Shown: piece by piece, positions 21,288 through 47,837 of the stretch
Layout of the letters: each line of letters opens with the position of its first letter
Position numbering within the stretch: position 1 is the stretch's first letter
Assembly (NCBI RefSeq): GCF_007747995.1
Contig: NZ_CP036276.1
Location: forward strand, 2,967,001-3,031,000
Source of the DNA: Symmachiella dynata
GTDB taxonomy: Bacteria; Planctomycetota; Planctomycetia; Planctomycetales; Planctomycetaceae
Reading direction: 5' to 3'
DNA: 64,000 bases
The notes under the pieces: generated by a model
Databases searched by the model: none
What the model saw: only the letters and a program-made list of their open reading frames with translations
Told to the model about the DNA's origin: nothing
Translations under genes and position numbers: made by a program

Positions 21288-21294
21288 CGTGTTC

Positions 21295-29436: not shown

Positions 29437-29492
29437 ATTCGTCTCCTCCTGGTAAGCCATGGATGCACTGGGAGCCGTCTGGGCAGATGCCC

Positions 29493-29522
29493 ATTATAGG
29501 AACCTTGTCGGCAAACAGGCAA
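29493..29522 (-). promoter_or_regulatory. Likely promoter of the second exported oxidoreductase
   Basis: On the minus strand TTGCCT (29522-29517) and a perfect TATAAT (29498-29493) are 18 bases apart. Transcription would begin about 50 bases ahead of the start codon at 29436. Confidence 0.45.
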
Positions 29523-29678
29523 ACGGAGAACGAAAAGCACTTTTAGAATCGCGCGAGGCGTTAATTTGTCCGTTGGCAATGTGCAAAGACGTGCACACCG
29601 CGCGCCCGAATGGGGCACGGGTGTGCAATCCATTGCAGATCGACAGAGGCGAGCGTGCCTATCGCAGATGCACGCCGA

Positions 29679-31073
29679 TTACTTGATGAACGAATCCAAC
29701 GCGCCCGTCTTGGAGAGAATCACGATCACAATCAACACCGGTGACACGAATCGAATCGTGAACAACCAAGCCGCTGCCAACATCTCTCCCACGACGCCAA
29801 ACGGAGCAAAGCCGCTGTTACGATCTTCATAGCTGACAAACCAGCCGGCGAAAATTGCGATGGCTAATCCGCCCAGCGGAAGCATGTAGCGTGTGGTTAA
29901 GTTATCCAGAAAATCCAAGACGCTTCCGTCACATGCCGAAGCAATCCCCAGCCCCCAGACCAACCCCCCGAAAACACAAGTAGCAATGGATCGTTTCATC
30001 TTCCATTCGTCGACGAAATACGCAACCACAACTTCCAACAAGGAAACGGCGGAAGACCAAGCCGCGAACACCACCAGCAAGAAAAAGAAGCTGGAGACAG
30101 CCGCACCGTATGGCATTTTAATGAATAGGGCCGGCAGCGTCTTGAACAGCAACCCCGGTCCTCCCTCAGCTTCCAGGCCAGCATGAAATACGACGGCAAA
30201 AATCACGGTACCGGCCATCAAGGCGATGAGCGTATCGAGAAACGCAATCGCTATGCCGTCACGAATGACATGCCGCTCGCTCTTGAGATACGACCCGTAC
30301 GTCACGATCGCCCCCATGCCCAATGACAAGGTAAAGAACGCGTGCCCCAAAGCCTCTAGCACGGCCGCGGCGCTCAGCTTGTGAAAGTCGGGTTTGAACA
30401 AAAACGTCAACGACTCTTCCAAGCCACCGGTGTAACCGACGTAGATCAACAGAGCGATGAGCATCAAAAAGAGGACTGGCATCAGGATTTTACACAGTTT
30501 CTCAATCCCACCATGAATCCCGCCCATCACCACGATCATCGTTAATGCCATAAAGATCGTATGCCAAAGCGAAGAAAGTTTTGCGCTGCCCGCCACTTCA
30601 GCAAATGTTCCCTCGGCACCCAATTGAGCATCGGGCATGAGACCCAATGAAACCGCCAGAAAATGCAGCGCCCATCCAGCGACGACGGCGTAAAACGAGA
30701 GAATCAAAAACCCCGAGGCCACCGCCATACCACCGGTCAGATAAGCGAGTATCCGTCCCAACACGCTTCCTTCAGCGGCGAGGTTCCGCATCGCTCCTAG
30801 AATATCGCTGCCGCCGCGACGACCGATGATTAACTCCGCATACATCAACGGCAATCCGACGACGGCAATGCAGATTAAATAGACCAACACAAACGCGCCG
30901 CCACCGTATTCGCCGGTGATGTAAGGGAATTTCCAAATATTCCCCAACCCCACGGCGCTCCCGACCGCCGCCATGATAAAGCCAAAGTTCGTGGCAAACC
31001 CGCCACGGTCCGGGTTGCCTTTAACGCTTGCATCGGCGAGTTCTACGCCGTTTTGATTCGGTTGGCCACTCAT
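29679..31073 (-). CDS. Neurotransmitter:sodium symporter (NSS/SNF) family transporter
   Basis: The 464-residue protein has about 11-12 membrane helices. It opens with the unmistakable family block FATNFGFIMAAVGSAVGLGN followed by IWKFPYITGEYGGGAFVLVY, which contains the sodium and substrate sites of helix 1. The GMGAIVTYGSYL motif of helix 6 is also present. NSS proteins take up amino acids or related compounds driven by sodium. The specific substrate is not evident. It is a single gene, divergent from the helicase gene. Confidence 0.94.
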   Translation of the reverse strand: MSGQPNQNGVELADASVKGNPDRGGFATNFGFIMAAVGSAVGLGNIWKFPYITGEYGGGAFVLVYLICIAVVGLPLMYAELIIGRRGGSDILGAMRNLAAEGSVLGRILAYLTGGMAVASGFLILSFYAVVAGWALHFLAVSLGLMPDAQLGAEGTFAEVAGSAKLSSLWHTIFMALTMIVVMGGIHGGIEKLCKILMPVLFLMLIALLIYVGYTGGLEESLTFLFKPDFHKLSAAAVLEALGHAFFTLSLGMGAIVTYGSYLKSERHVIRDGIAIAFLDTLIALMAGTVIFAVVFHAGLEAEGGPGLLFKTLPALFIKMPYGAAVSSFFFLLVVFAAWSSAVSLLEVVVAYFVDEWKMKRSIATCVFGGLVWGLGIASACDGSVLDFLDNLTTRYMLPLGGLAIAIFAGWFVSYEDRNSGFAPFGVVGEMLAAAWLFTIRFVSPVLIVIVILSKTGALDSFIK

Positions 31074-31404
31074 TGTCGCTCCCCCCCTCCGAATGATTAT
31101 CGTAGGCCACAGCGCGCAGCTATGGTGTTATAGTTACGGTCACATAATAACTGAAGCGCAAATGAGTGGCGTTTGTTACAGGATAATTTCTATCAAAGCC
31201 GTGGAAATTAGAAAATTCTGGGGGCGGGCAGATTGTCCGACAGAATCATTCTGGACAGCGGTGAACGGGGCAGGGGAGTGTTCCTCAGTCGTCGGAATGA
31301 CAATTGGCTGGTCAAAACGCGAGCGCATTCTTTATGATTGCTGGAACGGGCCGTGGACGGAGCGCGGCCCTTGCCTCGAGTTCCGATTTTACAAGCAGCG
31401 ACTT
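31074..31404. other. 330-base divergent promoter region of the transporter and helicase genes
   Basis: The stretch is AT-richer than its surroundings. An open frame from 31093 runs through it into the helicase gene, but that part has no helicase similarity. It holds a dyad (31234-31257, listed separately) and a GGGCAGGG octamer at 31268-31275. No clear -35/-10 pair was found. Confidence 0.45.
31234..31257. promoter_or_regulatory. Dyad-symmetric element upstream of the helicase gene
   Basis: TGTCC (31234-31238) pairs with GGACA (31253-31257), and inside it AGAA pairs with TTCT around TCA. This is an imperfect operator-like dyad about 150 bases before the helicase start. It does not match the known LexA boxes I can recall. 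Confidence 0.3.
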
Positions 31405-33660
31405 TTGAACAATCTCACAGCCAGCCAACAACAGGCGGTCGACCACAAGGAGGGACCGCTGCTCGTGCTTGCCGGTCCCGGTTCGGGCAAGACGCGGGTG
31501 ATCACGCACCGTATCGCCCAGTTGGTGCAAAGCGGCGTGCATCCCTACAACATTCTGGCGATCACCTTCACCAACAAAGCGGCTCGTGAAATGGGTGAGC
31601 GTGTTGAAGCGCTGTTGCCGGATGCCAAAATCTGGGTCAGCACGTTTCACCGGTTCTGCGCACAATTGCTGCGCAAGCACGCACGCGGCGTCGGACTGCA
31701 GCCGAACTACACGATTCTCGACACCTCGGACCAACGACGGTTGCTCAAATCGGTGCTTACCGAGTTGGGGCACGATGTCAAACATTTTCCACCCGCCAAA
31801 GTGGCGGCGCGGATTAGCTCCAGCAAAAATCGTCTCGTCGGCCCCGAGGAGTTTGCCCTCAACCCTGGGGGAGGAATAGGCGATACAATGTTGCGGGTTG
31901 TGACGGAGGCCTACCCCGCCTATCAACGCGCGTTGCAAGACAGCAATGCGGTCGACTTCGACGACCTGTTGCTGCACGTGGCGCGCTTGCTGGAAGAAAA
32001 CCCCGCCTTGCGGAGCCAACTGGACGAGCGGTTTCAATACGTTCTCGTCGATGAATATCAGGACACCAACCTACCGCAATACCGCATCGTCCGCGCGTTG
32101 TCACAGGATTATCCCAATCTATGCGCCACCGGTGATCCCGATCAATCGATCTATGCCTGGCGGGGGGCCGAGATCGGCAACATCTTGCGTTTCGAACAAG
32201 ATTATCCCGATGCAAAAGTCGTCCGCCTGGAACATAATTTCCGCAGCACTAAGGCCATCTTGCGGCAAGCGGATCTGTTGATCGGTCACAATTTTAACCG
32301 CAAAGCCAAGGAATTGCTGACGGAGAATGATGAAGGGCCGCCGGTCGAGTTATTGACGTTCACCGACGGCGCTGCCGAGGCAGAAGGGATCGCGCTGCGG
32401 ATTCAAGACCTCGTGGATCAAGCAGGCAGAGCGTGGTCGGACTTCGCAATCTTTTATCGGGTCAACGCACTTTCGCGAAGCATCGAACGAGCATTGGCCC
32501 GCTTTCACATTCCGTATCAAGTCGCCGCCGGTGTTGGGTTTTACGACCGGGCCGAAGTCAAAGACATCGTCGCCTACCTACGGCTGATCGCCAACCCGGC
32601 TGACCGGACCGCGTTTGAACGAGTCGTCAACGTCCCCGCGCGGGGCATCGGCAAAACATCACTGACGCGTTTAACCGCTTGGACAACGGGGCAGGGGGGC
32701 GGTTTGTTGGAAGCAGCGGCGCGTGCGGAGGAGGTCCCCAAGCTAACAAAGCGCGCCGTCAAAGCACTGCATGGGTTTTACGAATTGATCTCCCAACTGT
32801 CGCAACGCACGGCGCAGGGAGTCGCCGAGTTGATCACGCAGGTCGTTACACAAACCGGCTATGATCATTCTTGGCTGGATGACCCCACGGAACAAAACAT
32901 GGAGCGGGCTGCCAACGTCGATGAATTGATCTCCGCAGCCCGGCAATACGATGCAGCGCACGGCGACGATGCCACGTTGGAAGGATTCCTGGAAGAAAGT
33001 TCGCTGATCAACGATGTGGATAGCCTGGATGAACATGCGGGCAGCGTAACATTGATGACGTTGCACGCCGCTAAGGGGTTGGAATATCCGGTGGTCTTCA
33101 TCGTCGGTGTTGAACAAAACCTGTTACCGCACGAACGGGCAATCAACAGTGACGACCCGCATGAACTGGAAGAGGAGCGACGTTTGTTGTTCGTGGGCAT
33201 GACCCGTGCGGAAGAGCAGTTGATGCTCACGCAAACAGCAGTGCGGGATATCCGCGGCCAGCGACTCTCGACGATCCCCAGCCCGTTTTTGTTCGAGATG
33301 GATCTCGCCGCCACCGTCGTCGAAACCGACAGCGAATATATCGCGTGGGACGATGACTATGCCCACGACGATTCGCTGGACGACTTCGAACCGATCATCA
33401 AACAGCGCCCCGAAGAAGACGCGCCGCGACCACAAATGATGACCGCCGCCGACTTGCTCAATGGCACCAACACCCCGACGGATATTCCGCGCGGTTTCAG
33501 CATTGGCATGGACGTCCGCCATCCGCAATACGGTGTCGGCACCGTCCGCAACGTCGACGGCTTCGGTCGCCGCAAAACAGTCACGGTCGAATTCGCAGCA
33601 GGGGAGTGCCGCAACTTCGACATCGCCAAAAGCCCGCTGCAACCGGTCGGGCAGCGTTAG
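31405..33660 (+). CDS. UvrD/PcrA-like superfamily 1 DNA helicase
   Basis: Starting at TTG 31405 the protein has 751 residues, the usual size. Motifs in order are: Q-motif LTASQQQAV, Walker A AGPGSGKT (residues 23-30), motif Ia ITFTNKAAREM, motif II VDEYQDTN, motif III TGDPDQSIYAWRGA, motif IV LEHNFRSTKAIL, motif V TLHAAKGLEYPVVF and motif VI RRLLFVGMTRAEEQL. The C terminus carries the small Tudor-like domain of PcrA/UvrD (HPQYGVGTVRNVDGFGRRKT). It is a 3'-5' helicase for repair and clearing of replication forks. The open frame extends 104 codons upstream, but that part is not helicase-like and lacks good starts. The start choice is moderately certain. Confidence 0.95.
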   Translation: MNNLTASQQQAVDHKEGPLLVLAGPGSGKTRVITHRIAQLVQSGVHPYNILAITFTNKAAREMGERVEALLPDAKIWVSTFHRFCAQLLRKHARGVGLQPNYTILDTSDQRRLLKSVLTELGHDVKHFPPAKVAARISSSKNRLVGPEEFALNPGGGIGDTMLRVVTEAYPAYQRALQDSNAVDFDDLLLHVARLLEENPALRSQLDERFQYVLVDEYQDTNLPQYRIVRALSQDYPNLCATGDPDQSIYAWRGAEIGNILRFEQDYPDAKVVRLEHNFRSTKAILRQADLLIGHNFNRKAKELLTENDEGPPVELLTFTDGAAEAEGIALRIQDLVDQAGRAWSDFAIFYRVNALSRSIERALARFHIPYQVAAGVGFYDRAEVKDIVAYLRLIANPADRTAFERVVNVPARGIGKTSLTRLTAWTTGQGGGLLEAAARAEEVPKLTKRAVKALHGFYELISQLSQRTAQGVAELITQVVTQTGYDHSWLDDPTEQNMERAANVDELISAARQYDAAHGDDATLEGFLEESSLINDVDSLDEHAGSVTLMTLHAAKGLEYPVVFIVGVEQNLLPHERAINSDDPHELEEERRLLFVGMTRAEEQLMLTQTAVRDIRGQRLSTIPSPFLFEMDLAATVVETDSEYIAWDDDYAHDDSLDDFEPIIKQRPEEDAPRPQMMTAADLLNGTNTPTDIPRGFSIGMDVRHPQYGVGTVRNVDGFGRRKTVTVEFAAGECRNFDIAKSPLQPVGQR

Positions 33661-33739
33661 TTAGTGGTGTTTATTAGCCACAGATGAAACACGGATTGAA
33701 CACAGATCAAACAAAAGACGTGCATTCCATGCAGGAAAT

Positions 33740-33827
33740 CTCACGCCAAGGCGCAGAGGCTGCAAGGAGTCGGGCATGGTGAGTTACTTTGCTTTGCGAT
33801 CTTTGCGCCTTTGCGTGAGGTTTTTTT
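33740..33827 (+). terminator. Large inverted repeat with T run after the helicase gene
   Basis: Arms 33740-33758 and 33801-33819 match at 17 of 19 positions (outer CTCACGC with GCGTGAG, inner AAGGCGCA with its partner) and are followed by seven T residues at 33821-33827. The sequence, together with the nearby AGCCACAGATG, resembles dispersed intergenic repeats seen in many bacterial genomes, so it is both a probable terminator and a repeat. Confidence 0.65.
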
Positions 33828-33862
33828 CGTAGTGCCAAGTACAGCGGCGCTTTTTTAGAACA

Positions 33863-34354
33863 TCAGTCCAACACCTTCTGCAGTATCACCACATCCAACA
33901 ACCGATCAAACTTACGACCGATTTCCTTGAGCACGCCGACTTCGACAAACCCGAACATTTTGTTCAAATGCAGACTTGCTTCGCTTTCGGCTGTGACGAG
34001 GGCGATTAGCGAATGGAAACCGTGGTGGCGGGCTTCTTCGATGATTGCTGCTTTCAGCGCGCGGCCGATGCCTTGTCCGCGATGTTCGACAGCCACATAG
34101 AAGGTCGTCTCCGCACTGATGTCGTACGCCGGTTTTTGATTCCAGTGGGACAGGGAAGCCCAGCCCACGACATCGTTGTCGACTTCGGCGACGAGAATGG
34201 AATAGCGCGGGCCGTGGTCGTCAAACCACTGTTGTCGTTCGGCGAGTGTTTTTTCATCGGTGTCGAACGTGGCTGTCGAATCGCGAATGGCGGCGTTGTA
34301 GATGTCGTTGATCGCGTTCAGGTCGCCCTGCTGGGCCGGTCGAATCACAGGCAT
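33863..34354 (-). CDS. GNAT-family N-acetyltransferase, phosphinothricin-acetyltransferase-like
   Basis: From ATG 34354 (GGAG upstream) the protein has 163 residues. It shows the PAT/MnaT subfamily pattern: MPVIRPAQQGDLNAINDIYN, VGWASLSHWNQKPAYDI, the acetyl-CoA loop VAVEHRGQGIGRALK and the end NKMFGFVEVGVLKEIGRKFD. Such enzymes acetylate methionine sulfone or sulfoximine-like amino acids, or act broadly on small amines. The exact substrate is not visible. Fifteen extra residues upstream in frame are not part of the fold. It is transcribed away from the FAD oxidoreductase. Confidence 0.92.
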   Translation of the reverse strand: MPVIRPAQQGDLNAINDIYNAAIRDSTATFDTDEKTLAERQQWFDDHGPRYSILVAEVDNDVVGWASLSHWNQKPAYDISAETTFYVAVEHRGQGIGRALKAAIIEEARHHGFHSLIALVTAESEASLHLNKMFGFVEVGVLKEIGRKFDRLLDVVILQKVLD

Positions 34355-34397
34355 GAAATCGCTCCGTATCAGGTGAGCTGTTGGAGGGCAGGGGCCC

Positions 34398-34425
34398 ATT
34401 ATAACGTGGCTATGTGAATCGTCAT
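34398..34425 (-). promoter_or_regulatory. Possible promoter of the acetyltransferase gene
   Basis: On the minus strand ATGACG (34425-34420) and a perfect TATAAT (34403-34398) are 16 bases apart, giving a start site near 34391 and a short leader before 34354. Confidence 0.38.
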
Positions 34426-34525
34426 TCTCTAAATCGAATTTCAGGTTGTATGGCGATTCACAGTTCCCAGCGGGCGGGTCGCTAGACTACGATCAATCGA
34501 ACACTTCCTCAGACTGAGCGGTTTC

Positions 34526-35809
34526 TTGAATCACACACAAAATTCAAATGCGACGAAACGCATTGCCATCATTGGCGGCGGCCCGATTGGGTTGGAGGCA
34601 GCTCTTTACGGCCGTTTGGCGGGCTTTGACGTTGAGCTCTATGAAAAAGGTCCGTTGGCCGCTAACGTGCGGGACTGGGGACATGTGCGCCTGTTCAGCC
34701 CGTTTCGCATGAACGCCTCCAACTGGGGGCAACGCGCGATCGCCGAGCAACTACCCAATGTGGGGCTGCCCCAAGGCGAACAATATCTTACTGGCCGCGA
34801 ATACGCCGACCATTACCTGCTCCCGTTGAGCCGACTCCCGAAACTGTCTGAATGCCTGCACGAACAGACGACGGTCGTCGGCATCAGTCGCATGAATTCT
34901 TGGAAAGCGGACCTGATCGGAAATCCTGCCCGCGGCAATGATCCGTTCCGACTTCTTTTGCGAGATCGCAGCGGAATAGAACGCGATGTGTCCGCTGATT
35001 ATGTGCTCGATTGCTCGGGCGTTTATCCGCATCACAACTGGCTCGGAGCAGGGGGGCTGCCGGCAGTGGGGGAGACTTCAGCGGCCGGCGCGATCGAATA
35101 CGGCATCCCGGACATATTGGGCAACCGCCGCGATTTGTATGCGGGGCAGACGACGTTGGTCATTGGCGGTGGTTATTCGGCAGCGACAGCGATTACAGCA
35201 TTGGCACGACTAGCCGAATCGGATAAAAATACGCGGGCGATTTGGATCACCCGCTCCGAGCGCACACCGCCGCTGGTGGCCATCGAAGAGGACCCCTTGC
35301 CCGAGCGCGGTACATTGACGGCGAAGGCCAACCGGTTGGCGATGTCAGCGGACTCGCCGATTACGTTGATGCCGCAACGCATCATTCAGGGAATTCAATG
35401 CTTAGCTGGGCAGGGGGGCTTTCGCGTGATTGTTCGTCACCGCGAGGAGCATGAAATTCTCTCCATCAATCGCATCATTGCCAATGTAGGATATCGGCCC
35501 GACCGGTCGTTATACAGCGAACTGCAAATGCACGAATGCTATGCCACTTCAGGACCGATCAAGTTGGCGGCTGCGTTGTTGGGGGAGACGTCAACCGATT
35601 GCCTGAATCAGTCCAGCAACGGAGCAGAAACGTTGCGCAATCCCGAGCCTGGTTTTTTTATCTTGGGGGCAAAAAGTTATGGGCGCGACTCGCGGTTTTT
35701 GATTCGCACGGGTTTGGAGCAGATCGCCGATGTCTACGGTTTGCTGACCGCGGAACCGGGGGCACCCATGTCGCAAAAAAGCGAGCAGGGGGCGCAGCAA
35801 CAGCAATGA
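34526..35809 (+). CDS. FAD/NAD(P)-dependent oxidoreductase of a coupled three-gene unit
   Basis: The 427-residue flavoprotein opens with a dinucleotide-binding fold (IAIIGGGPIGLEAALYGRLA). A second one sits near the middle (TTLVIGGGYSAATAITALA). A flavin-binding end reads GFFILGAKSYGRDSRFLI. The arrangement matches flavin monooxygenases and thioredoxin-reductase-like enzymes, but there is no CxxC redox pair and no FMO fingerprint that I recognise. The region DWGHVRLFSPFRMNAS probably lies near the flavin. The start is TTG 34526; no ATG is in frame nearby, and the ribosome binding site is weak. Its stop overlaps the radical SAM start as ATGA, so the two proteins are made together. Substrate unknown. 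Confidence 0.88.
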   Translation: MNHTQNSNATKRIAIIGGGPIGLEAALYGRLAGFDVELYEKGPLAANVRDWGHVRLFSPFRMNASNWGQRAIAEQLPNVGLPQGEQYLTGREYADHYLLPLSRLPKLSECLHEQTTVVGISRMNSWKADLIGNPARGNDPFRLLLRDRSGIERDVSADYVLDCSGVYPHHNWLGAGGLPAVGETSAAGAIEYGIPDILGNRRDLYAGQTTLVIGGGYSAATAITALARLAESDKNTRAIWITRSERTPPLVAIEEDPLPERGTLTAKANRLAMSADSPITLMPQRIIQGIQCLAGQGGFRVIVRHREEHEILSINRIIANVGYRPDRSLYSELQMHECYATSGPIKLAAALLGETSTDCLNQSSNGAETLRNPEPGFFILGAKSYGRDSRFLIRTGLEQIADVYGLLTAEPGAPMSQKSEQGAQQQQ

Positions 35810-37560: not shown

Positions 37561-38010
37561 TTGAGAGCAGTTGTGCAAAGGGTTTCCCGGGCTCAGGTTT
37601 CGGTCGCGGGTGAAGTCACCGGAGAGATCGGCAGCGGCTATTTGGTGCTGTTGGGCGTCACTGCCGAAGATGGCCAGGATGACGTCATTTATCTGGCCGC
37701 CAAGATTGCCGGACTGCGGATTTTTGAAGATGAGGCCGGCAAAATGAATCTCTCGCTGGCCGATGTCGGCGGAGCGATGTTGGTCGTCAGTCAATTCACA
37801 CTTTTGGGCGATTGTCGGAAAGGGCGTCGCCCCAGTTTCATCGCGGCGGCCCGTCCGGAAATTGCGAATCCGCTTTACGAAAGTTTCGTTGCGGAAGTCC
37901 GCGGCCATGGGATCGAAGTGGCGACCGGCCGGTTTCAAGAACAGATGCAAGTCGAGTTGGTCAACGAGGGACCGGTGACCATTCTGGTCGACAGCCGCAA
38001 GGAATTCTGA
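37561..38010 (+). CDS. dtd: D-aminoacyl-tRNA deacylase
   Basis: The 149-residue protein is a complete Dtd: [15 protein letters not shown] at the N terminus, the catalytic-loop motif SQFTLLGDC and the second signature near the C terminus ([13 protein letters not shown]), the Gly-cis-Pro region. It removes D-amino acids wrongly attached to tRNA. The start is TTG 37561, supported by AAGGAC upstream and by conservation of the first residues. It follows the phosphoesterase by 20 bases and may share its transcript, although the function is unrelated housekeeping. Confidence 0.97.
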
Positions 38011-38107: not shown

Positions 38108-38131
38108 AAACCCTTATAATACAGGGTTTTT
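38108..38131 (+). terminator. Weak terminator-like hairpin after dtd
   Basis: AAACCCT (38108-38114) pairs with AGGGTTT (38123-38129), followed by only two more T residues. The loop contains TATAAT by chance. It is AT-rich and of modest strength. Confidence 0.38.
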
Positions 38132-38143: not shown

Positions 38144-38171
38144 ATGAAACATAACGGACATTATCGGACGT
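38144..38171 (-). other. Candidate dif site for XerCD recombination
   Basis: Read on the minus strand, the 28 bases split into an 11-base left arm (ACGTCCGATAA), a 6-base centre (TGTCCG) and an 11-base right arm (TTATGTTTCAT). The right arm matches the XerD arm of E. coli dif (TTATGTTAAAT) at 9 of 11 positions. The inner ATAA/TTAT symmetry and the spacing are exact, while the left arm matches only in its inner part. It lies between converging genes, as dif sites usually do. The polarity of GGGNAGGG octamers changes around it. The identification is inference from pattern. Confidence 0.5.
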
Positions 38172-38180
38172 TGCGGATAT

Positions 38181-38202
38181 GCTGAAATACTGGTGTTTCA
38201 GC
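38181..38202. repeat. Hairpin next to the dif candidate
   Basis: The bases 38181-38190 and 38193-38202 form a 10-base stem with a single T-G wobble (GCTGAAA with TTTCAGC on the outside) and a two-base loop. It lies beyond the accA 3' end without a T run. The role is unknown; it could be a protein-binding site or a Rho-assisted terminator. Confidence 0.4.
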
Positions 38203-38294
38203 AATGCGTACTTAGCTGTTGGGCTGCGACGTTCTCTGGCGACTGTTCGCGCACCGGGCCATCGAGATGATCACTTGCCACTCTGATCGACCGG

Positions 38295-39341
38295 TTAGCT
38301 ATTGGCGTCGGGAGTCATCTCAGCATCCGTATCAGCATCAGCGGCGGGGTCGTTGTCGGTGGCCGCGAGCGTTTCCTCAATAGCGGTTTCTTCAAAGACT
38401 CCGATGCGGCGGAATTTCTCATAACGCCGATCGAGTAGTTCCTCTTTCGAAAGTCCATCCATCGATTTGAGGCTTTCGGTCAGACTGGCTTTGAGAGCCA
38501 TCGCCATCCGCCGGTGGTTGCGGTGTGCGCCTCCCAACGGCTCGGGAATCACCTCGTCGACAATCCCCATTCTCAAAAGGTCGGCTGAGGTAAACTTGAG
38601 CGCCTGGGCCGCCTTGTCGGCATGTTTCACATGCTTCCATAAAATGCCCGCACAGCCTTCGGGGCTGATCACCGAATAGTAGGCGTGCTGCAAGACGGCA
38701 ACGTGGTCGGCGATGCCGATTCCCAAAGCTCCACCTGACCCCCCTTCCCCCAGCACGACCGCCGTGATCGGTGTCGGGATGCGCGACATCTCGCGGAGGT
38801 TGTATGCGATCGTGTAGGCTTGACCGCGTTCTTCGGCACCGATCCCCGGATAGGCGCCGGGCGTGTCGATGAAGCAGATGATCGGCAGTCCATATTTGGC
38901 CGCCATTTGCATCCGTGACAGCGCCTTGCGATACCCTTCGGGATGAGCGCAGCCATAGTGGCAATCGCTTCGCTCCTGGATCGTCCGTCCTTTTTGCTGG
39001 CCGATCAGCATGATCTTGCGACCGTTGATTTTGGCCAGTCCGGTGAGAATGGCGCGGTCGTCTCCAATCGCTCGGTCGCCATGCAGCTCGACAAATTCGT
39101 CGAACACCAGTTCGATGTAGTCGGGCGTTTGTGGCCGACCGGTCTGTCGGGCCACCTGCACCGTTTCCCAGGCACCAAGATTGTCGAAAATTTCGCGCGT
39201 CAATCGCGTGATTTCCAACTTCAATTGGCGGATCTGTTCGGCGTGTTCAGGCGTCGAATTTTCTTGCGCATTGAGATCGGCCAGTTGCTTTTCGAGTTCT
39301 TGAATCGGCCGCTCGAACGGGAGCGGTTGATATGTCGCCAT
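38295..39341 (-). CDS. accA: Acetyl-CoA carboxylase carboxyltransferase subunit alpha
   Basis: From ATG 39341 the protein has 348 residues and begins PLPFERPIQELEKQLADL, the normal N terminus of AccA. The active site blocks LIGQQKGRTIQERSDCHYG, FIDTPGAYPGIGAEERGQA and VLGEGGSGGALGIGIADHV are intact. With AccD it forms the carboxyltransferase that makes malonyl-CoA for fatty acid synthesis. The C-terminal 30 residues are acidic and Ala/Asp-rich, beyond the usual end. A longer frame from 39419 adds residues unlike AccA. Confidence 0.97.
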   Translation of the reverse strand: MATYQPLPFERPIQELEKQLADLNAQENSTPEHAEQIRQLKLEITRLTREIFDNLGAWETVQVARQTGRPQTPDYIELVFDEFVELHGDRAIGDDRAILTGLAKINGRKIMLIGQQKGRTIQERSDCHYGCAHPEGYRKALSRMQMAAKYGLPIICFIDTPGAYPGIGAEERGQAYTIAYNLREMSRIPTPITAVVLGEGGSGGALGIGIADHVAVLQHAYYSVISPEGCAGILWKHVKHADKAAQALKFTSADLLRMGIVDEVIPEPLGGAHRNHRRMAMALKASLTESLKSMDGLSKEELLDRRYEKFRRIGVFEETAIEETLAATDNDPAADADTDAEMTPDANS

Positions 39342-39518
39342 CGCTGATTCTTGTTCGCGGAGGGTGAATTGAGTGACATGCCGGATAGGGCGGTACGCCC
39401 CAGATGGTCGCGACTTCAACGCCCCAGGTCAAGCAAGCCGCGATTTTCTGTTCGCGCAGTTTTCGATTTGCAGGCTGCTGGCTGCAAACGGACCTGCGAC
39501 ATGAATGGCGATGGCCAC

Positions 39519-41054
39519 TTAGACATCGGGGAGCGTCTTGAAGATATCCTCCATATCGTCGATGCTCATGATCGTTCCTTCAGATTCTTTTTCCGGAGGC
39601 TTTTGCTCTTGTGGAGGGGCTGGTTTGGGTTGGGGCGGTTGTGCTTGGCCTGGATCCGGCGCCGGAGGTTGCTGAGTGGCTTGGGGCGCAGTTGGTTGCG
39701 GAGGCTGTTGCTGCTGCGGCGGCATCGGTTGTGGCGGCATTTGCGGTGGCTGCATACCTGGAGGCTGCATACCCGGGGGTTGCTGCATACCCGGTTGCGG
39801 ATACATTTGATTCTGCATGGCTTGCTGGTGCATCATCTGCTGGTAATACGCCTGTTGCTGTTGGAGCATTTGCTGATGCATGGCCATTTGTTCGGGGGTC
39901 ATCGCCTGCAGCGGCATGCCTGGTTGCGGGAAGGGTTGCGGAGGCTGGCCTGTTGGTTGTTGGGGCGGCTGCTGGGCAGGTTGCTGCTGTGCTGGAGGCG
40001 CAGGAGCTTTCGGCTTTTCGATGGGCTCGGCTTTGATATTGACCTTCGATTTGGTTTTCTCAGGGGCTTTGACAGAGCCAGGATTCTTTTTGAGCGCCTC
40101 GGTTCGCATCGCGTCCAATCGACTGTCGATGCGTGACGCGATGCCCTCATCTTGATCTTTGAGTTTATCCTCGTTGATTTCTTGTTCCGTCCGTTGCGCC
40201 TGCTCGGGGAGAGATTCTTTGAAGATTTGGACGTTACGGAATTCGGACAAAAATTCATCGATGCCGCTTTGACGGTTCTTCGGCAATTTGGCGAGCATCT
40301 TCAAAACGATCTGGTCCATTTCCGCCGTAATGTTGTCGTTGAATTCCGAAGGGGGGGCGGGAGTGGTCTTCAGATGGTCCATCAATAGTTCGTCGGGGTG
40401 CGGCGAACGAAACGGGGGCCGCCCTGCCAAGATTTCATACACCGTAATGCCGAAGCCATAAATATCGGCGATGGGTGATAACGGCTGATTGCGAATTTGC
40501 TCAGGAGCCATGTAAGTCCGCGTACCTTGTACGGGCCCCTTCTTTTTGCGATTGACCATTTTGCCCAACGAACCGGCCGGCCGGCCTGACAATGAAAAGT
40601 CAATCAACCGCACCTCGGAGGATTTGTTAATGAGAATGTTCTCTGGCTTAACGTCCTTATGGATCCAACCGCGTTCGTGCATATGGGACAGCGCCATGGC
40701 TGTCTGTTCGATCAACTTGCGCGCTCGCCGCTGTATGGAGGCTTTATCGCTGACCAATTGCACCTTGGCGTTGGGAGCGCGAAATAACTCCATGGCGATA
40801 TAGGCGTGGTTGCGGCTCACAATGCATTCGTAGACCCGGATAATATTGGGATGCTCCAGTGACTTGCCCACCTTGGCTTCCAACTTCAAGATCTGCTTTT
40901 GTTCCTTGTCTGCAAATGCCTCGGGGAGCAACACCTTCAGCGCAACGGTCCGCCCACTCCCGGAATCGTTCGCTTCCCAGACTTGGCTGTGTCTCCCTTG
41001 CGACAGACAGCTGGACAATTTGTAGTTGTCGATAGATGATTCATTTTCTGACAC
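39519..41054 (-). CDS. Ser/Thr protein kinase with Pro/Gln-rich tail
   Basis: In 511 residues the kinase domain covers about 10-275: LSQGRHSQVW (loop), K40 in VALKVLL, E59, the catalytic loop HKDVKPEN (132-139, D134) and APEQ (183-186). The magnesium motif is DFS (152-154) instead of DFG, as found in a few active kinases. The glycine loop is also poor in Gly. A charged helical region follows (QRTEQEINEDKLKDQDE), then some 130 residues dominated by Pro, Gln and Met (repeats like MQPPGMQPP). The acidic end is EGTIMSIDDMEDIFKTL. There is no membrane helix, unlike many bacterial kinases. Substrates unknown. Confidence 0.9.
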   Translation of the reverse strand: MSENESSIDNYKLSSCLSQGRHSQVWEANDSGSGRTVALKVLLPEAFADKEQKQILKLEAKVGKSLEHPNIIRVYECIVSRNHAYIAMELFRAPNAKVQLVSDKASIQRRARKLIEQTAMALSHMHERGWIHKDVKPENILINKSSEVRLIDFSLSGRPAGSLGKMVNRKKKGPVQGTRTYMAPEQIRNQPLSPIADIYGFGITVYEILAGRPPFRSPHPDELLMDHLKTTPAPPSEFNDNITAEMDQIVLKMLAKLPKNRQSGIDEFLSEFRNVQIFKESLPEQAQRTEQEINEDKLKDQDEGIASRIDSRLDAMRTEALKKNPGSVKAPEKTKSKVNIKAEPIEKPKAPAPPAQQQPAQQPPQQPTGQPPQPFPQPGMPLQAMTPEQMAMHQQMLQQQQAYYQQMMHQQAMQNQMYPQPGMQQPPGMQPPGMQPPQMPPQPMPPQQQQPPQPTAPQATQQPPAPDPGQAQPPQPKPAPPQEQKPPEKESEGTIMSIDDMEDIFKTLPDV

Positions 41055-41287
41055 GGGATACTCTTCCTTCCTTAGTGCCTACTTCAGGCATATAAACTGA
41101 GCAACGCATTCCGACCTGCCCTACGGGGTGCGTCGTTGTGCGGAATACAACCTGGAATTCGCAATTGCCCCAACTGCTTGGGCAATTTTCAGCTGTGATG
41201 TCGAGTCAGGTTGCGTGAGCGCGAATCCCGCCGTGTTTTGTGCGGACATCGCAGTGAGCCACATGACTAGCACGCGTCGTGACGCTA

Positions 41288-42436
41288 CTACAAACCTCTA
41301 GATTTTGTCTTACGCGGCTGCGACTGAAACTGCTTTTTACTCTTTTCGGTTTCTTCAGGTGCGTCGAACTCCTGAACCCACGGACGCAATTTTGTTCCAT
41401 CGGTCAATTCCATCGACGCGTTGACGATCACTTCGTCGTTTGGTGAAAATTCTCCCGATACATAGATCCGCTCCGAATTGATTTGGGCCAACGGAGATAT
41501 CTTGATGTCGCGAACGACATACTCTCGAACAACCTGGACCTTCCGCTGCCCGTTGTCAGAATTGGAAATCGCCAAGGCTGGGACCACAGCCACCGGTTCG
41601 GTCGGAATCAGATCGACATAGACCGCTTGGCCGGGGTGAAAATTTCCTTCGCTGTTTTGAATTTGAATCTTCGCCATCGAGAGCGAATCGATCAACGGGC
41701 GTAATGATTCAAATCGCGGTGGCGGTGCATGGATTGATTCCACGACAGCCGAAGCTGCTTGGTTTTCTACTGTGACCGACATTTTGTCGCCCGCTTTGTA
41801 TTGTGCTCGACCTGCAGGAATCTCCGCGACCAGACTCGTCAAATCGGCCAATTCCGCCACTGCCTCCCCTGCTCTCACGAATTGGCCCGGGACAACATGC
41901 ACTTGCAAAATGGTGCCCGCAAATGCGCCGCGAACAACCATTCGATCTTGATTTAGTTCAGCCAATTCGAACGCCGCCCGCGCTGCTTCCAAATTCGCGT
42001 CAGCCAAGGCGATTTCATCGGCCGCACCGCTTTTTGCCTCGGCAATTTTTCTTTCAATTTGCCGCGCTGTCACTTCAGCTTTGGCTTTGCGTGTTAATAG
42101 TTCCGCACGCGTATCATCCATGCGAACCACGTCAGCTTGCGACGGGATCACATCTCCCGGTTTGACGTGGACACTTCGTACAATGCCATCCACCGGCGCG
42201 ATGACAGCGATGGAACGGACCGGCTCCAGCCGCATCGGAATTTGATAGGTGCGTGGATCTTCAAGCACCACAGCCCGGCGTTTGATCACCAAAGCCGCGG
42301 GGGCTTCTTCAGCGTCTGCCTGTTTCGTAGACCGCCGATTCGAATTCCGGTCTTGTGCAACACTAGCAACAAGTCCCAAACAGGAAATCGTGGCTGATAT
42401 CGTGATGATTTTGAACGCCATACTTCTCGAATTCAC
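41288..42436 (-). CDS. HlyD/RND-type periplasmic adaptor protein
   Basis: GTG 42436 lies eight bases after AGGAGT and gives 382 residues; ATG 42421 is the alternative. A signal peptide (FKIITISATISCLGLVASVA) is followed by a lipoyl-like half (IAVIAPVDGIVRSVHVKPGD), a helical hairpin (LTRKAKAEVTARQIERKIAE), the second lipoyl half (VVRGAFAGTILQVHVVPGQ) and a beta-barrel. These proteins bridge inner-membrane pumps and outer-membrane channels. No pump gene lies beside it, so its partner must be elsewhere, or it serves another role. The Lys/Arg-rich C terminus is unusual. Confidence 0.88.
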   Translation of the reverse strand: MNSRSMAFKIITISATISCLGLVASVAQDRNSNRRSTKQADAEEAPAALVIKRRAVVLEDPRTYQIPMRLEPVRSIAVIAPVDGIVRSVHVKPGDVIPSQADVVRMDDTRAELLTRKAKAEVTARQIERKIAEAKSGAADEIALADANLEAARAAFELAELNQDRMVVRGAFAGTILQVHVVPGQFVRAGEAVAELADLTSLVAEIPAGRAQYKAGDKMSVTVENQAASAVVESIHAPPPRFESLRPLIDSLSMAKIQIQNSEGNFHPGQAVYVDLIPTEPVAVVPALAISNSDNGQRKVQVVREYVVRDIKISPLAQINSERIYVSGEFSPNDEVIVNASMELTDGTKLRPWVQEFDAPEETEKSKKQFQSQPRKTKSRGL

Positions 42437-42798
42437 GATATTTGACTCCTGGTTTACTGCGCATGCGCTTTCAGTCACTCCGCGCATGACGCGGAGCCCG
42501 GCTGATTAACTCCTTAAGCCGTCTACTTATAGGATACGGGTGCTGGTGAGGGTGTGTCAACATTTGTCACGGTGGCTGGGGCTTCTGGGCAGGGGGCCCC
42601 CCGCCCCACTTTGTCGTCAGTGTGTGACGTAGAAATTTCTTCCCCATTGCCCCCTGCTCTCTTTCGCTGGATGGCGAAATCTACTCAGAATATGCTATTC
42701 TGAATGGGTTTCGTGGAACTTGGACAAACCGCTATCAAGTGGCGATGTCCCAGGCATGATCTCTGTAATCGATGAATTCGCCTCGGGAGGCGCACGAT
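42437..42798. other. 360-base divergent regulatory region
   Basis: It separates the adaptor (minus) from the redoxin-like gene (plus). It contains a GGGCAGGG octamer at 42587-42594 and two neighbouring dyads at 42662-42703 (listed separately). No convincing -35/-10 pair was found. Confidence 0.45.
42662..42703. promoter_or_regulatory. Two adjacent perfect dyads, possible operators
   Basis: The first is TTTCGC (42662-42667) with GCGAAA (42674-42679) over six bases. The second is TCAGAATA (42685-42692) with TATTCTGA (42696-42703) over three bases. They lie about 100 bases before the redoxin-like gene start, a position suited to a repressor or activator. Confidence 0.42.
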
Positions 42799-44163
42799 AT
42801 GACCGCTTTATTGTCCAACCTCGTCGTCCTGTCTGTTCTCGCGTCCCCCTTGGCCGATTCCAATGCCGTCGAGCTCCGCTATCGCGGTGCTTTGATCGAA
42901 ACGGGACGAGAATCCAACGGCGACACCGTCAAACGGTTCAATCTCTACTGCCTCGTGAGCAAGGCCGAAGGAGATGGGCAGCGTTTAGCGTTTCTGGTTG
43001 ATGAAAACGGCGGCGGTTCCTGGGCCTGGCCCGAACAATACGGCCAGATCGATCTCGATGCCGCGCTGCGGCCCACCAATCCGGCTCAAATCCGTCTGCT
43101 CTATACGCATGAAGGCGAACCGACTTCGATTCGCGTTCGGCGTCCACTATTTGAACATCACGATAAACTGGCCGAAAATGCCAACTGGACCGTCGGCAAT
43201 TCCAAGTACTCAGTCGTCGGCTCCGCCAAGGTTCAGGATTGGGACTGCTGGCGCGTGGAGGCGGTCACGAATTTTGGCCTTCGCGAAGAACTTGCCGTAG
43301 AAAAACAAACTGGGCTGATCGTCAGTGCCCGTCGCGATTTAACGCGTGGCAAAGGGGTCCCCTTCTCTCTTTCCTTTGAGCTGCAATCGCACAAACCGCT
43401 CGAAAAAGCGGATCACGACAAATTGCAAAAGCCGATCAGCACGCTGGCCAAGTTGCAAGCGGACCTCAAGCGTCCGGAAAACGAAATGAATGCCGAATTG
43501 ACCTCCGATCAACTCAAGGTCACCGAATTGATCGCCGAACAATTGCAGCAAGAAGCCGAGGACACCCCCTATGCCCGACTGGCCGCGTCCATTCGTCGTG
43601 ATCTCAAGCGTCAGATGCGGCGTTATGATGAGGTCGAGAAACTCTCGGCAAATTTTGTCGGCAAAGCAGCTCCTGAATTTTCTCTGCAGCCACTACGCGG
43701 TGAGGCAATTGATGCCGCAGCCATGAAAGGCAACGTGGTCGTTCTGCATTTTTGGGACTACAAATACGACCCGCTCGTCGAACCATACGGCCAAGCCCCC
43801 TACCTCGACTATTCATATACCCGATATAAAAAACTCGGCGTGCAAGTTTACGGCGTGGCCGTCAACAGCCTGTTTTCCGACGCCAACACCCGTGGCGCTG
43901 CCTTGCAGAGTACGCGAAAATTCAAGTCCTTTATGAATCTCAGTTATCCATTGGCGATCGACGCTGGTGAACTGGTCGCAAAATTCGGTGATCCACGACG
44001 CGTGGGTGCGAAACTTCCCTTGTGGGTCGTCATCGGAGCCGATGGCAAGGTGGCGCACTACAGTATCGGGTTTTACGACATCAATCCCGACGAAGGCCTG
44101 CGTCCGCTTGATAAAGCAGTTGGCAAAGCAGTTCGAGCCAAACGCGAAGCGAAGAACGACTGA
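42799..44163 (+). CDS. Exported protein with redoxin-like C-terminal domain lacking CxxC
   Basis: ATG 42799 follows GGGAGG, giving 454 residues with a signal peptide (LLSNLVVLSVLASPLADS). The first 200 residues are a beta-rich domain of unknown type. A helical stretch follows (about residues 210-280). The C-terminal third has the TlpA/AhpC-like fold: GKAAPEFSLQPLRGE, then VVVLHFWDYKYDP (residues 317-325 hold HFWDYKYDP), then LPLWVVIGADGKVAHY. The position normally occupied by WCxxC is DYKYDP, so it cannot be a normal thiol oxidoreductase. It may bind a partner or ligand through the fold. Confidence 0.82.
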   Translation: MTALLSNLVVLSVLASPLADSNAVELRYRGALIETGRESNGDTVKRFNLYCLVSKAEGDGQRLAFLVDENGGGSWAWPEQYGQIDLDAALRPTNPAQIRLLYTHEGEPTSIRVRRPLFEHHDKLAENANWTVGNSKYSVVGSAKVQDWDCWRVEAVTNFGLREELAVEKQTGLIVSARRDLTRGKGVPFSLSFELQSHKPLEKADHDKLQKPISTLAKLQADLKRPENEMNAELTSDQLKVTELIAEQLQQEAEDTPYARLAASIRRDLKRQMRRYDEVEKLSANFVGKAAPEFSLQPLRGEAIDAAAMKGNVVVLHFWDYKYDPLVEPYGQAPYLDYSYTRYKKLGVQVYGVAVNSLFSDANTRGAALQSTRKFKSFMNLSYPLAIDAGELVAKFGDPRRVGAKLPLWVVIGADGKVAHYSIGFYDINPDEGLRPLDKAVGKAVRAKREAKND

Positions 44164-44221
44164 CACGCCCACGATCCAGTCGTGAAATCCTAGCGGTTTG
44201 TTATGGTTTCTATTTTGCGTT

Positions 44222-44296
44222 GGGTGCCACTGGCTTTGCTCGTGGCACTTCAAATCAGTGCGATACTCGGGAACGCTGGTAGAGTCAGTGGCACCC
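44222..44296. repeat. Inverted repeat between the redoxin-like and acyltransferase genes
   Basis: GGGTGCCACTG (44222-44232) and CAGTGGCACCC (44286-44296) are perfectly complementary over 11 bases, with a 53-base spacer. The GTGCCACTG core resembles dispersed intergenic elements. No T run follows except CTTTCTTC, so termination is uncertain. Confidence 0.45.
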
Positions 44297-44376
44297 TCTT
44301 TCTTCGATGAGACGATGCACGAGCCCGTGCGGCGGATGTGCCTGATTTCCCTTACCCAAGGATGACCGATCATCAC

Positions 44377-45576
44377 ATGACCACCACGCCAGCCGCCTCG
44401 CTGACACCCGCGCCGCGTTTAATCTCGCTCGATGCCTATCGCGGATTCACGATGTTGGCGATGGCGTCGGGCGGATTGGGATTGGCCGAGGTGGCCACGC
44501 ATCATCCCGACAGTGCCGTGTGGCAGGAAATTGCCCGTCAGATGGAGCATCTGCCCTGGGTGGGCTGTGTGGCTTGGGATTTGATTCAACCCTCGTTCAT
44601 GTTCATGGTCGGCGTCTCGATGGCTTATTCGTACGCCAGCCGGCAACGCCGTGGCGATTCTTACGGCCAGATGTTTCGCCATGCGTTGTTTCGCGGAATC
44701 ATCTTAACGCTGTTGGGTGTCTTCCTGCGCTCGAACCACAAACCGGAAACCTACTGGACGTTCGAAGATGTCGTTTCGCAGATCGGGCTGGGGTATGTGT
44801 TTTTGTTTCTGCTCTGGGGCCGCTCCGCCAAAGTCCAATTCACCGTGGCCATGCTGGTGCTGATTGGGTATTGGGCGCTGTTTGCCTTCTGGCCGTTGCC
44901 CGGCACCGATTTCGACTACGCATCCGCCGGTGTCGATCCCGATTGGGAGTACAACCTCTCAGGATTCGCCGCACATTGGAATAAAAACACGAATGCCGCA
45001 CATGCGTTTGACGTTTGGTTTTTGAATCTCTTCCCACGCAGCACCGTGTTTCAAAATAACGGCGGCGGGTATCACACGCTCAGTTTTATTCCCTCATTAG
45101 CCACGATGATCTTTGGATTGATGGCTGGGGAACTGCTCCGCAGCCCGCGCGGCGGCGGACGCAAGTTCTTGATTCTCGTCGGCACCGGTGCTCTGGCCAT
45201 GGCGGTCGGTTACGCATTGGATTTCTACGACATCTGCCCAATCGTGAAGCGGATTTGGACGCCAAGTTGGACGATCTACAGCAGCGGGATTTGCTTATTG
45301 ATCCTAGCGGCGTTCTACGGCGTCATCGACCTGGGTGGCATCCAGTTTTGGGCCTGGCCGGCAGTGGTTGTCGGCATGAATTCCATCGCCATTTATATCA
45401 TGACTTGGTTGTTCAAAGGTTGGATTCGCGAGACATACCAAACACACCTTGGCCAAGAGATATTCAACATCTTTGGCGAACAGTATGCATCGCTCGTCGA
45501 GCATATGGCGATCCTGTTGGCCATGTGGTTGATTTGCCTGTGGATGTACCGCCGTAAGATTTTCCTCCGTATTTAA
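44377..45576 (+). CDS. DUF5009 / heparan-alpha-glucosaminide N-acetyltransferase-like membrane protein
   Basis: The 399-residue protein has about ten membrane helices. It opens with the family signature RLISLDAYRGFTMLAM and then WDLIQPSFMFMVGVSMAYS. Related proteins transfer acetyl groups from cytoplasmic acetyl-CoA across the membrane onto sugar amines. A conserved His is expected, and several are present (HHPD, HALFRG). ATG 44377 is favoured with AAGGAT upstream; ATG 44362 and GTG 44338 also fit the frame. The genes on both sides are unrelated. Confidence 0.87.
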   Translation: MTTTPAASLTPAPRLISLDAYRGFTMLAMASGGLGLAEVATHHPDSAVWQEIARQMEHLPWVGCVAWDLIQPSFMFMVGVSMAYSYASRQRRGDSYGQMFRHALFRGIILTLLGVFLRSNHKPETYWTFEDVVSQIGLGYVFLFLLWGRSAKVQFTVAMLVLIGYWALFAFWPLPGTDFDYASAGVDPDWEYNLSGFAAHWNKNTNAAHAFDVWFLNLFPRSTVFQNNGGGYHTLSFIPSLATMIFGLMAGELLRSPRGGGRKFLILVGTGALAMAVGYALDFYDICPIVKRIWTPSWTIYSSGICLLILAAFYGVIDLGGIQFWAWPAVVVGMNSIAIYIMTWLFKGWIRETYQTHLGQEIFNIFGEQYASLVEHMAILLAMWLICLWMYRRKIFLRI

Positions 45577-45636
45577 ATCGCCGGCTTAAACGCCAATAAC
45601 TTTTTGCGAAATAAATTGACAGAACTGGGAATAATA

Positions 45637-46581
45637 ATGACTCAAATCCCCATTATGGGTGACGGATTGCCGCAACCGTTGTTGGAGATGCTCGGCGCGG
45701 AATTTGAAGTGCTCCCCTGGGACGACGCTCCTGACTCCCCTGCCCTGGCCCGTGCTGAAGCGGTCATCGCTTACGGACATCCTCCAGTCGATGGTTCCCT
45801 GATGGACCGGGCACCCCAACTGAAGGTGATTAGCAATCACGGTGTGGGCGTCGACCACATCGACGTAGCCGCTGCCCTTCAACGCGGTATTCCGGTCGGT
45901 AATACGCCCGGTTGTCTCGATGCTGCAACCGCCGATATGACGATGGCGCTGATGTTGGCGACGGCCCGGAACGTGGTGGTTGGCGACAAGTATGCGCGTA
46001 GCCCGGAGTTTCTCCACTACGATCCGGCCATTCTCATTGGACAGGAAGTGACCGGCAGCAAGCTGGGGATCATCGGCATGGGCCGTATCGGCAAACAGGT
46101 TGCCAAGCGCGCCACCGGTTTCGATATGCAGATCACATACCACAACCGGCACCGCGATTCCGAGGCGGAAAGCGAATACAAAGCGGAGTATCGCAGCTTA
46201 GATGATTTGTTGGCTGAGAGTGATTTCGTGGTGCTCAACTGCCCGCTGACTCCGGAAACGACGGGACTGATCTCCGGGCCACAGTTTGAAATCATGAAAT
46301 CATCGGCCATCTTGATCAACATGGCTCGCGGTCCGGTCGTCGATCCGGCCGCACTCTTTACCGCGCTCTCAACTGGGCAAATTGCCGCGGCGGGAATCGA
46401 TGTCACTGATCCGGAACCATTGCCGCGTGGACATGAACTGTTGACGCTGGAGAACCTGATCATCACGCCGCACTTGGGCAGCGCCTCGAACCGCACCCGC
46501 GAGCGAATGATGCGCATGACGGTGGAGAATCTTCACGCTGGATTGCAGGGGAAACCGCTTCCCTATTCTGTTGACAAGTAG
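45637..46581 (+). CDS. D-isomer-specific 2-hydroxyacid dehydrogenase
   Basis: From ATG 45637 the protein has 314 residues. The NAD(P) site reads LGIIGMGRIGKQVAKRA, the substrate-binding loop HGVGVDHID, the catalytic Arg lies in NMARGPVVDP, the Glu in DPEPLPRGH and the His in TPHLGSAS. It belongs to the glyoxylate/hydroxypyruvate reductase group, judging by the start of the N-terminal domain and its length, but phosphoglycerate dehydrogenase-like activity cannot be excluded. It acts in the cytoplasm. Sixty bases separate it from the membrane acyltransferase, so co-transcription is possible. Confidence 0.92.
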   Translation: MTQIPIMGDGLPQPLLEMLGAEFEVLPWDDAPDSPALARAEAVIAYGHPPVDGSLMDRAPQLKVISNHGVGVDHIDVAAALQRGIPVGNTPGCLDAATADMTMALMLATARNVVVGDKYARSPEFLHYDPAILIGQEVTGSKLGIIGMGRIGKQVAKRATGFDMQITYHNRHRDSEAESEYKAEYRSLDDLLAESDFVVLNCPLTPETTGLISGPQFEIMKSSAILINMARGPVVDPAALFTALSTGQIAAAGIDVTDPEPLPRGHELLTLENLIITPHLGSASNRTRERMMRMTVENLHAGLQGKPLPYSVDK

Positions 46582-46727
46582 TTTCAAAACCCTCTGACGT
46601 GTCCTAACGACACTGATCTGAAAGTCCGAGAACCAGCGCAACCCGGTTTTGAAACTGGTTCGAGCGAAACTACCCCCCTGCCCTGCTGCTGTTGAATCCT
46701 GCAATGGGTGCGGTCTTAAACGGGCAA

Positions 46728-47837
46728 TTACGTGGCCGGAGACGGTTCTTGCGGCGGATCCAAGGTTTCGCTGGAGAGCAGGTCTGGCTCCGACTTTGGT
46801 TTGGTGAGCATGTAATAGCCGGCTCCCATCACCGCCGTCACGACGCTTGTGACCCGAAATACCAGCGCTGCCGCCACACCGGTGGCTTCCGCGGTTTGCT
46901 TGGCGACGTGTCCTACAGCTGTCAAACCATAGAAGAACGAGATCGCGCCTTCCAATGGTCCCACGCCGCCGGGGACCGGAATGACCGAGGCGAACAACTC
47001 TGCAGCAGGCATGAAGTAATAGTGTGCCCACAGATTGGGGACCCACACATTCAGCGACCGGGCACAGCAATAAAAGCCCGCCACCAGTCCCGCATGTCCG
47101 ATGAGGCTGATCACCACAGCTAGGGCCACGACACGCCGTTTGGTTTGATAGAGGGCGATCCCGTTGAGCAGATCTGCCAACGTTTTTCCAACGTATTTCA
47201 GTCCGACCAGTTTTTGCAGAATCGGCCAGCGGGTTGAACCGGGCGTGAGCATGATCATCAGGCCCGCAACACCTGCAATTGAACCACCCCACAGACTCCA
47301 GCCCACCACCGACATCATGGGCACCGACGCTAAAAAGCCTTGTTCTTGGGACTTATCGGCCGCGGCAGCCGTCGCTGCCGCTTCGTTCAAGGCGGCGGTG
47401 TCGAAGTCGACGAAAAGCGTTGCCAAGGCGCCGACCATAAACAGCGCGAGCAAGCCTAAAATGCGATCCAAAACGACCGTAGCGGCAGCAACGGCGCGGC
47501 GTGACTGTTGATTGCGAGCGACCATGGCCGCTTTGAGTAAATCCCCACCGACAATGCCCGGTCCGCCGTAGTTGCAAAGCAGTCCAAATCCGCCCAACCG
47601 AAAAGCGTCTTTGAGCGTGAAGTCAAACTCCTGCGCCCAGACCAACAGGTACCAACGGACGAACGTTAAAGCAGCGCAGCCGGCGACCAGTGTGAATCCC
47701 AAAGCAAAAAAGCCCCAGTCCTTTTGGCCGTGACGTAGCTTTTCGAAATTATCCCAATGTTGAAACAGCAAATAGGCCAGCATGCCAATGGCAAATGGCC
47801 ATTTGAGTTTACCGGCGATCGCAAAAAGCTTATCCAA
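46728..47837 (-). CDS. Flippase-like (lysylphosphatidylglycerol synthase TM domain) protein
   Basis: The start is TTG 47837 with a strong GAGGAG nine bases upstream, giving 369 residues. A 32-codon longer frame lacks such a site. Eight or so membrane helices are present, with the family blocks FGLLCNYGGPGIVGGDLLKA, VLDRILGLLALF and ELFASVIPVPGGVGPLEGAI. UPF0104 proteins resemble the flippase half of MprF and are thought to move lipids between leaflets. An Ala-rich loop (NEAAATAAAADKSQEQG) sits between helices. It may form one unit with the small tail-anchored protein upstream. Confidence 0.9.
   Translation of the reverse strand: MDKLFAIAGKLKWPFAIGMLAYLLFQHWDNFEKLRHGQKDWGFFALGFTLVAGCAALTFVRWYLLVWAQEFDFTLKDAFRLGGFGLLCNYGGPGIVGGDLLKAAMVARNQQSRRAVAAATVVLDRILGLLALFMVGALATLFVDFDTAALNEAAATAAAADKSQEQGFLASVPMMSVVGWSLWGGSIAGVAGLMIMLTPGSTRWPILQKLVGLKYVGKTLADLLNGIALYQTKRRVVALAVVISLIGHAGLVAGFYCCARSLNVWVPNLWAHYYFMPAAELFASVIPVPGGVGPLEGAISFFYGLTAVGHVAKQTAEATGVAAALVFRVTSVVTAVMGAGYYMLTKPKSEPDLLSSETLDPPQEPSPAT

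Follow-up and report, generated by a model that had tools for sequence, protein, structure and literature searches.

Is a 28-mer lying between the converging genes dtd and accA the dif site of the Symmachiella dynata chromosome, and does the DNA around it also contain the replication terminus, as a sequence-only reading of the region had proposed? In the survey of 641 organisms by Kono et al. (2011), dif prediction failed in Cyanobacteria and Planctomycetes (PMC3025954), and no later report of a planctomycete dif was found in the open-access literature; dif is a known kind of site, and a planctomycete dif fills the gap left by that survey. The window analysed here is the whole stretch of 64,000 nucleotides, positions 2967001-3031000 of one 7,767,809-base contig (the 7.77-Mb chromosome of genome G000). 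As set out below, the 28-mer is very probably dif, judging from its sequence and genomic context, and the compositional terminus appears to lie elsewhere.

On the minus strand, the 28-mer reads ACGTCCGATAA-TGTCCG-TTATGTTTCAT, that is, two 11-bp half-sites with partial dyad symmetry separated by a 6-bp centre, the layout of dif (Table 1). The inner ATAA/TTAT symmetry was exact on re-reading, as had been described. In a comparison with the dif sequences of E. coli, B. subtilis and V. cholerae, the 28-mer equals E. coli dif at 17 of 28 positions (XerC arm 5, centre 3 and XerD arm 9, the last as originally counted) and B. subtilis dif also at 17 of 28 (8, 2 and 7, respectively). The left arm had been said to agree only in its inner bases; although only 5 of its 11 positions equal the E. 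coli XerC arm, the remark understates its likeness, because the B. subtilis XerC arm matches at 8 of 11. Thus, the site shares with the E. coli and V. cholerae system the 28-bp 11-6-11 layout, the XerD arm and a centre beginning with TGT, but not the XerC arm, which is ACTTCC-like as in B. subtilis-type (Firmicutes) dif, from which the centre and the XerD arm diverge. The gene calls agreed with a gap between convergent genes, and short stems were present on both flanks. In a folding check, no strong hairpin was found within the 28-mer itself; the folding excess on either side was small, and the idea that the downstream hairpin is a conserved part of dif was rejected.

Table 1. Features bearing on the candidate dif site, in coordinates of the 64,000-nucleotide window
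Feature	Position	Strand	Remark
Candidate dif	38144..38171	-	28-mer; arms assigned by analogy with E. coli dif
XerC arm ACGTCCGATAA	38161-38171	-	part of 28-mer
Centre TGTCCG	38155-38160	-	part of 28-mer
XerD arm TTATGTTTCAT	38144-38154	-	part of 28-mer
Conserved CA directly before XerC arm	38172..38173	-	in 97 loci, C 91% and A 98%
dtd (D-aminoacyl-tRNA deacylase), next to candidate dif	37561..38010	+	TIGR00256
accA, acetyl-CoA carboxylase alpha subunit	38295..39341	-	PRK05724/TIGR00513
Hairpin AAACCCT...AGGGTTT, between dtd and candidate dif	38108..38129	.	stem; probably dtd terminator
Hairpin TGCTGAAA...TTTCAGCA, between candidate dif and accA	38180..38203	.	stem; probably accA terminator
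ftsK, C-terminal end	2..520	+	PRK10263, E 2.2e-32
FtsK-gamma domain	272-454	+	PF09397, E 1.4e-23; 37.7 kb from candidate dif
Twelve GGGNAGGG left of candidate dif	5710..35415	+	all on plus strand
GGGNAGGG, exceptions in left half	1694 and 36610	-	
Five GGGNAGGG right of candidate dif	38742..62619	-	38742, 45738, 46676, 57830, 62612
GGGNAGGG, exceptions right of candidate dif	39928 and 42587	+	

We found that the 28-mer occurs once in the 7.77-Mb chromosome, with no second match at up to 3 mismatches in the chromosome, the window or shuffles of the window; a chance origin of the match is excluded. Searching the chromosome for a generic dif core turned up five other weak places, none with both ATAA and TTATGT intact; no better dif match was found elsewhere.

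Among 59 relatives (own genome counted), 26 carry the 28-mer at up to 3 mismatches anywhere, each once, and a reversed-pattern control gave no match. Two congeneric genomes carry the 28-mer unchanged, and the changes in the 24 sites tallied are confined to position 14 (once), positions 15-16 in the centre and positions 25-27 in the XerD arm. With a relaxed pattern (22 fixed positions plus the final T, up to 3 mismatches), 184 of 393 Planctomycetota genomes matched, mostly in single copy, and variants from distant families retain the dif core; about half of the sampled genomes had no match at this threshold, possibly owing to divergence of the site. Named matches include Planctomycetes bacterium Pan216 and Thalassoglobus neptunius, and also MAGs labelled Phycisphaerae and Omnitrophota. 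While full conservation of the 22 core columns is by construction, the flanking CA and T29 columns were outside the search pattern and are also conserved, with CA before the 28-mer and TT at positions 28-29 (T29 in 91% of 97 loci). Multi-copy matches in termite-gut MAGs (Pcl387_bin141 and others) were rejected as dif and excluded from the conservation count: in L127 and L134 the 24-mer sits within an RHS-type protein gene (NITYIIGR...DGHGSTRVL around it), and shared flanks suggest that the remaining ones lie likewise within RHS-type genes. The 24-mer core recurs many times in the termite-gut JAITIZ01 contigs (L111, L112, L127, L134, L167, L171, L197 and others); in two of these loci, read through, it is inside RHS-type genes (NITYIIGRNKIAQITVKNGT) and may represent a chance coding match or a captured Xer site.

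Such conservation might also be expected of a non-coding element belonging to accA/dtd, for instance a terminator or a signal in the 3' UTR, whose likeness to dif is accidental. Of 142 loci scanned, 89 had accA close to the site, frequently no more than 400 bp away, and the 3' end of accA adjoins dif in many Planctomycetia, so that conservation may partly reflect common descent; the flanking hairpins also fit such an element. However, the core occurs without accA or dtd nearby (e.g. L109, L110, L121 and L159) and its orientation relative to accA varies (L217, L220 and L221), and gene neighbourhood alone is therefore insufficient as an explanation. The 28-mer itself lacks a strong hairpin, neither the octamer switch, seen in genomes with different surroundings, nor the phage integration described below is accounted for, and we regard an accA/dtd element as very improbable.

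In E. coli, FtsK reads GGGNAGGG octamers (KOPS) that point to dif (PMC5357621, PMC6199493). Octamers were scanned in about 1.66 Mb sampled from the S. dynata genome and then in a further 0.77 Mb on the right-hand side of the window (3.03-3.98 Mb) as held-out DNA. On either side of the site, GGGNAGGG is directed at it, with a strand switch within a few kb: 63 copies on the plus and 20 on the minus strand were counted to the left, and 5 and 27, respectively, from the site to 4.07 Mb. In the held-out DNA, 18 were on the plus and 68 on the minus strand (p 5e-8). Of all the ways to arrange six G, one A and one N, GGGNAGGG scored best (z 8.1; next 5.4, median 1.3). Furthermore, an unbiased scan of the sampled genome gave GGGCAGGG, whose optimal switch point coincided exactly with the site; the highest-scoring poly-T/poly-A octamers of that scan were discounted as an artefact of masked N being taken for A. 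In the held-out DNA, GGGCAGGG had the strongest minus bias among 40,304 octamers (3+/40-, p 3e-9). Bootstrapping placed the octamer switch point at 2.93-3.01 Mb (5-95%). The octamer family TAGGCAGT/GTAGGCAG also shows strong strand bias in this genome (17+/2- left of dif and 3+/25- beyond 4.07 Mb).

Two other genera, represented by G109 and G034, were tested untuned, except that a ninth base was added for a shorter list. In G109, all 21 copies (of GGGCAGGGS) over the 0.75 Mb before dif were on the plus strand and all 22 over the 0.75 Mb after it on the minus strand; the switch falls in a 16-kb gap between 3549605 and 3565513, with dif inside at 3561729. In G034, the counts were 27+/1- and then 1+/12-, with the switch between 3698487 and 3734897 and dif at 3705274. 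Among the first 100 matches listed for G039, 74 were on the plus and 26 on the minus strand up to 3.18 Mb, and beyond this 50+/125- remain, which agrees with dif at 3.58 Mb. A KOPS switch at dif was thus found in the S. dynata genome and in two other genera. These octamers are of the proteobacterial GGGNAGGG type, unlike those of B. subtilis-type systems.

Two or three copies of the site were present in a minority of matching genomes, and both pairs examined flank a phage-like element. Specifically, in the Gimesia-like genomes G109 (L345 2729-16926) and G220 (L346), a filamentous-phage-like element lies between two dif copies, the second of which, ACGTCTGATCATGTCCGTTATGTTAA(A/G)T, is in direct orientation 14.2 kb and 8.7 kb away, respectively. 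The element encodes a secretin/protein IV (pIV) homologue, a Zot-like ATPase, a G2P-like Rep and a repetitive CPPG-rich protein; no integrase was recognised in the ORF list or by Pfam, and the phage-collection search gave no protein relative of the Zot-like ATPase. In three Gimesia-like loci the site is empty, the alignment running through dif on one side and resuming at the second copy on the other. The XerC arm is the sole difference between the two copies (the distal XerC arm reads ACGTCTGATCA), which fits an origin of one arm in the element. With its position at dif, dif-like flanks, empty site in relatives and no recognised integrase of its own, the element has the properties of an IMEX. 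CTXphi and similar filamentous phages exploit dif in this way (PMC5357621), from which the present case differs in its planctomycete hosts, its distal XerC arm and its Zot-like ATPase. The G109 element also encodes an HD-CE domain protein (PF24391), possibly a defence or cargo gene. At G418:C1:1332184-1332288, two oppositely oriented dif-like copies are separated by about 77 bp, and G145 and G163 (family f44) each have three dif-like copies with differing centres; the extra copies in the latter two may represent additional insertions of elements at dif, or secondary sites.

The use of this same sequence by the elements of G109 and G220 raises the alternative that the S. dynata 28-mer serves an integrated element for attachment, or is left over from one, rather than being the resident dif. 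This too appears very improbable: the 28-mer is single-copy and the window has no phage genes between dtd and accA, most matching genomes carry one copy, relatives with the empty site have the same sequence, and chromosome scans and the bootstrap found no second, better dif at another octamer switch in G000.

The genome encodes the machinery that a resident dif would need, with XerD (gene at G000 1967646; 338 bits, cut-off 329.6), XerC (gene at G000 6217785; 342 bits, cut-off 335.15) and a single FtsK-gamma domain, as in E. coli and V. cholerae. The distance between ftsK and dif is about 90-120 kb in G034, G109 and G220, and far in G003 and G039. Unlike in E. coli and V. cholerae, FtsZ (TIGR00065) was not found in six complete planctomycete genomes (G000, G003, G034, G039, G109 and G220), with 13 of 14 controls positive; FtsK-gamma is present in these FtsZ-negative genomes, as are, where tested, XerC/XerD-type recombinases and polarised octamers.

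Unlike that of dif, the proposal that the window contains the replication terminus is not supported. dif is usually near the compositional switch (PMC3025954), although a skew shift near dif is a usual correlate and no requirement, as in P. aeruginosa (PMC6199493) and several replicons (PMC13342612). The site is at 3.005 Mb, whereas the sampled cumulative GC skew peaks at about 4.0-4.1 Mb, a gene-level model of third codon positions switches at 3.75 Mb for GC3 and 3.95 Mb for TA3, and the combined measure switches at 3.7-4.4 Mb (5-95%; best 3.95). The extremum sought at the site thus falls about 0.7-1 Mb away, a departure from the E. coli and V. cholerae pattern. For k-mer strand bias as a whole, the switch is at 4.07 Mb. 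That the window is nevertheless the replication terminus, with the displaced switch being noise, is an unlikely reading: GC skew is weak, is negative for about 100 kb directly right of dif (3.03 to 3.12 Mb) before becoming mixed and net positive to about 4.0 Mb, and switches near dif in the asymmetric chromosomes surveyed (PMC6199493), and GC3 alone does not reject 3.0 Mb (12% of bootstraps), but TA3 does (0.2%), and the combined and k-mer measures both switch far to the right. It is only the link with replication that the distant extremum refutes, as the strand switch of the octamers coincides with the site rather than with the extremum of the skew. A recent inversion of 3.0-4.0 Mb is unlikely, since the octamers are mostly on the minus strand throughout. 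GC skew, a weak signal pointing elsewhere, was rejected as the deciding test for dif. The distance to dnaA was likewise rejected as an origin test, nearly every genome having two dnaA-like genes, full-length and short, neither consistently opposite dif. In S. dynata, the short gene (about 355 aa; G000:C1:82-1038, plus strand) lies where the contig begins, close to the minimum of the skew, and the full-length one (G000:C1:4256549-4257865, minus strand) is located at 4.26 Mb, close to the maximum. Nearly all complete genomes examined have a comparable pair.

The segregation and compositional termini look separated, and most likely the replication forks converge close to the point opposite position 0 and segregation ends at dif. 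P. aeruginosa PAO1-UW (PMC6199493) is similar in that dif is well removed from the point opposite the origin, KOPS polarity tracks dif and replication terminates at a distance from it. GC skew also tracks dif in that chromosome, whereas the skew switch in S. dynata is remote from dif and close to the point opposite position 0. We lean slightly toward the view that, in this lineage without detectable FtsZ, dif and the octamer polarity lie stably about 0.7-1 Mb from the compositional replication terminus, with skew following a point near 180 degrees from position 0. If true, such a stable separation would be the opposite of the published pattern for asymmetric chromosomes, in which GC skew follows dif.

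Taken together, single copy, phylum-wide conservation, the KOPS switch in three genera, phage integration and the presence of XerC, XerD and FtsK-gamma bear out the candidate, and we are highly confident that it is a chromosomal dif acted on by XerCD/FtsK, marking the end of segregation and not the compositional terminus. Conservation, copy number, octamer switch, use for phage attachment and machinery genes are read from sequence here, while binding, catalysis (including cleavage order) and FtsK activation are proposed by analogy with other bacteria; for XerCD binding and dimer resolution at the site, the phage insertions of G109 and G220 provide indirect evidence. By this analogy, XerC would bind ACGTCCGATAA and XerD TTATGTTTCAT; FtsK would load on GGGNAGGG-type octamers directed at the site from both arms and pump the terminal region toward the plane of division; once at dif, the FtsK gamma domain would activate XerD, and XerCD would recombine two dif copies, resolving the chromosome dimer. 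The site would then be the end of segregation, with the compositional (replication) terminus about 0.7-1 Mb off, near the point opposite position 0.

The motif ACGTCCGATAATGTNNGTTATGTTNNNT may thus serve as a marker of the segregation terminus across much of Planctomycetota, and S. dynata offers a case in which the skew terminus and the segregation terminus can be distinguished. As a natural integration site, dif, together with the phage-like element, may be a resource for genetic tools. Persistence of the FtsK-KOPS-XerCD architecture in bacteria in which FtsZ was not detected makes segregation in such cells directly testable.
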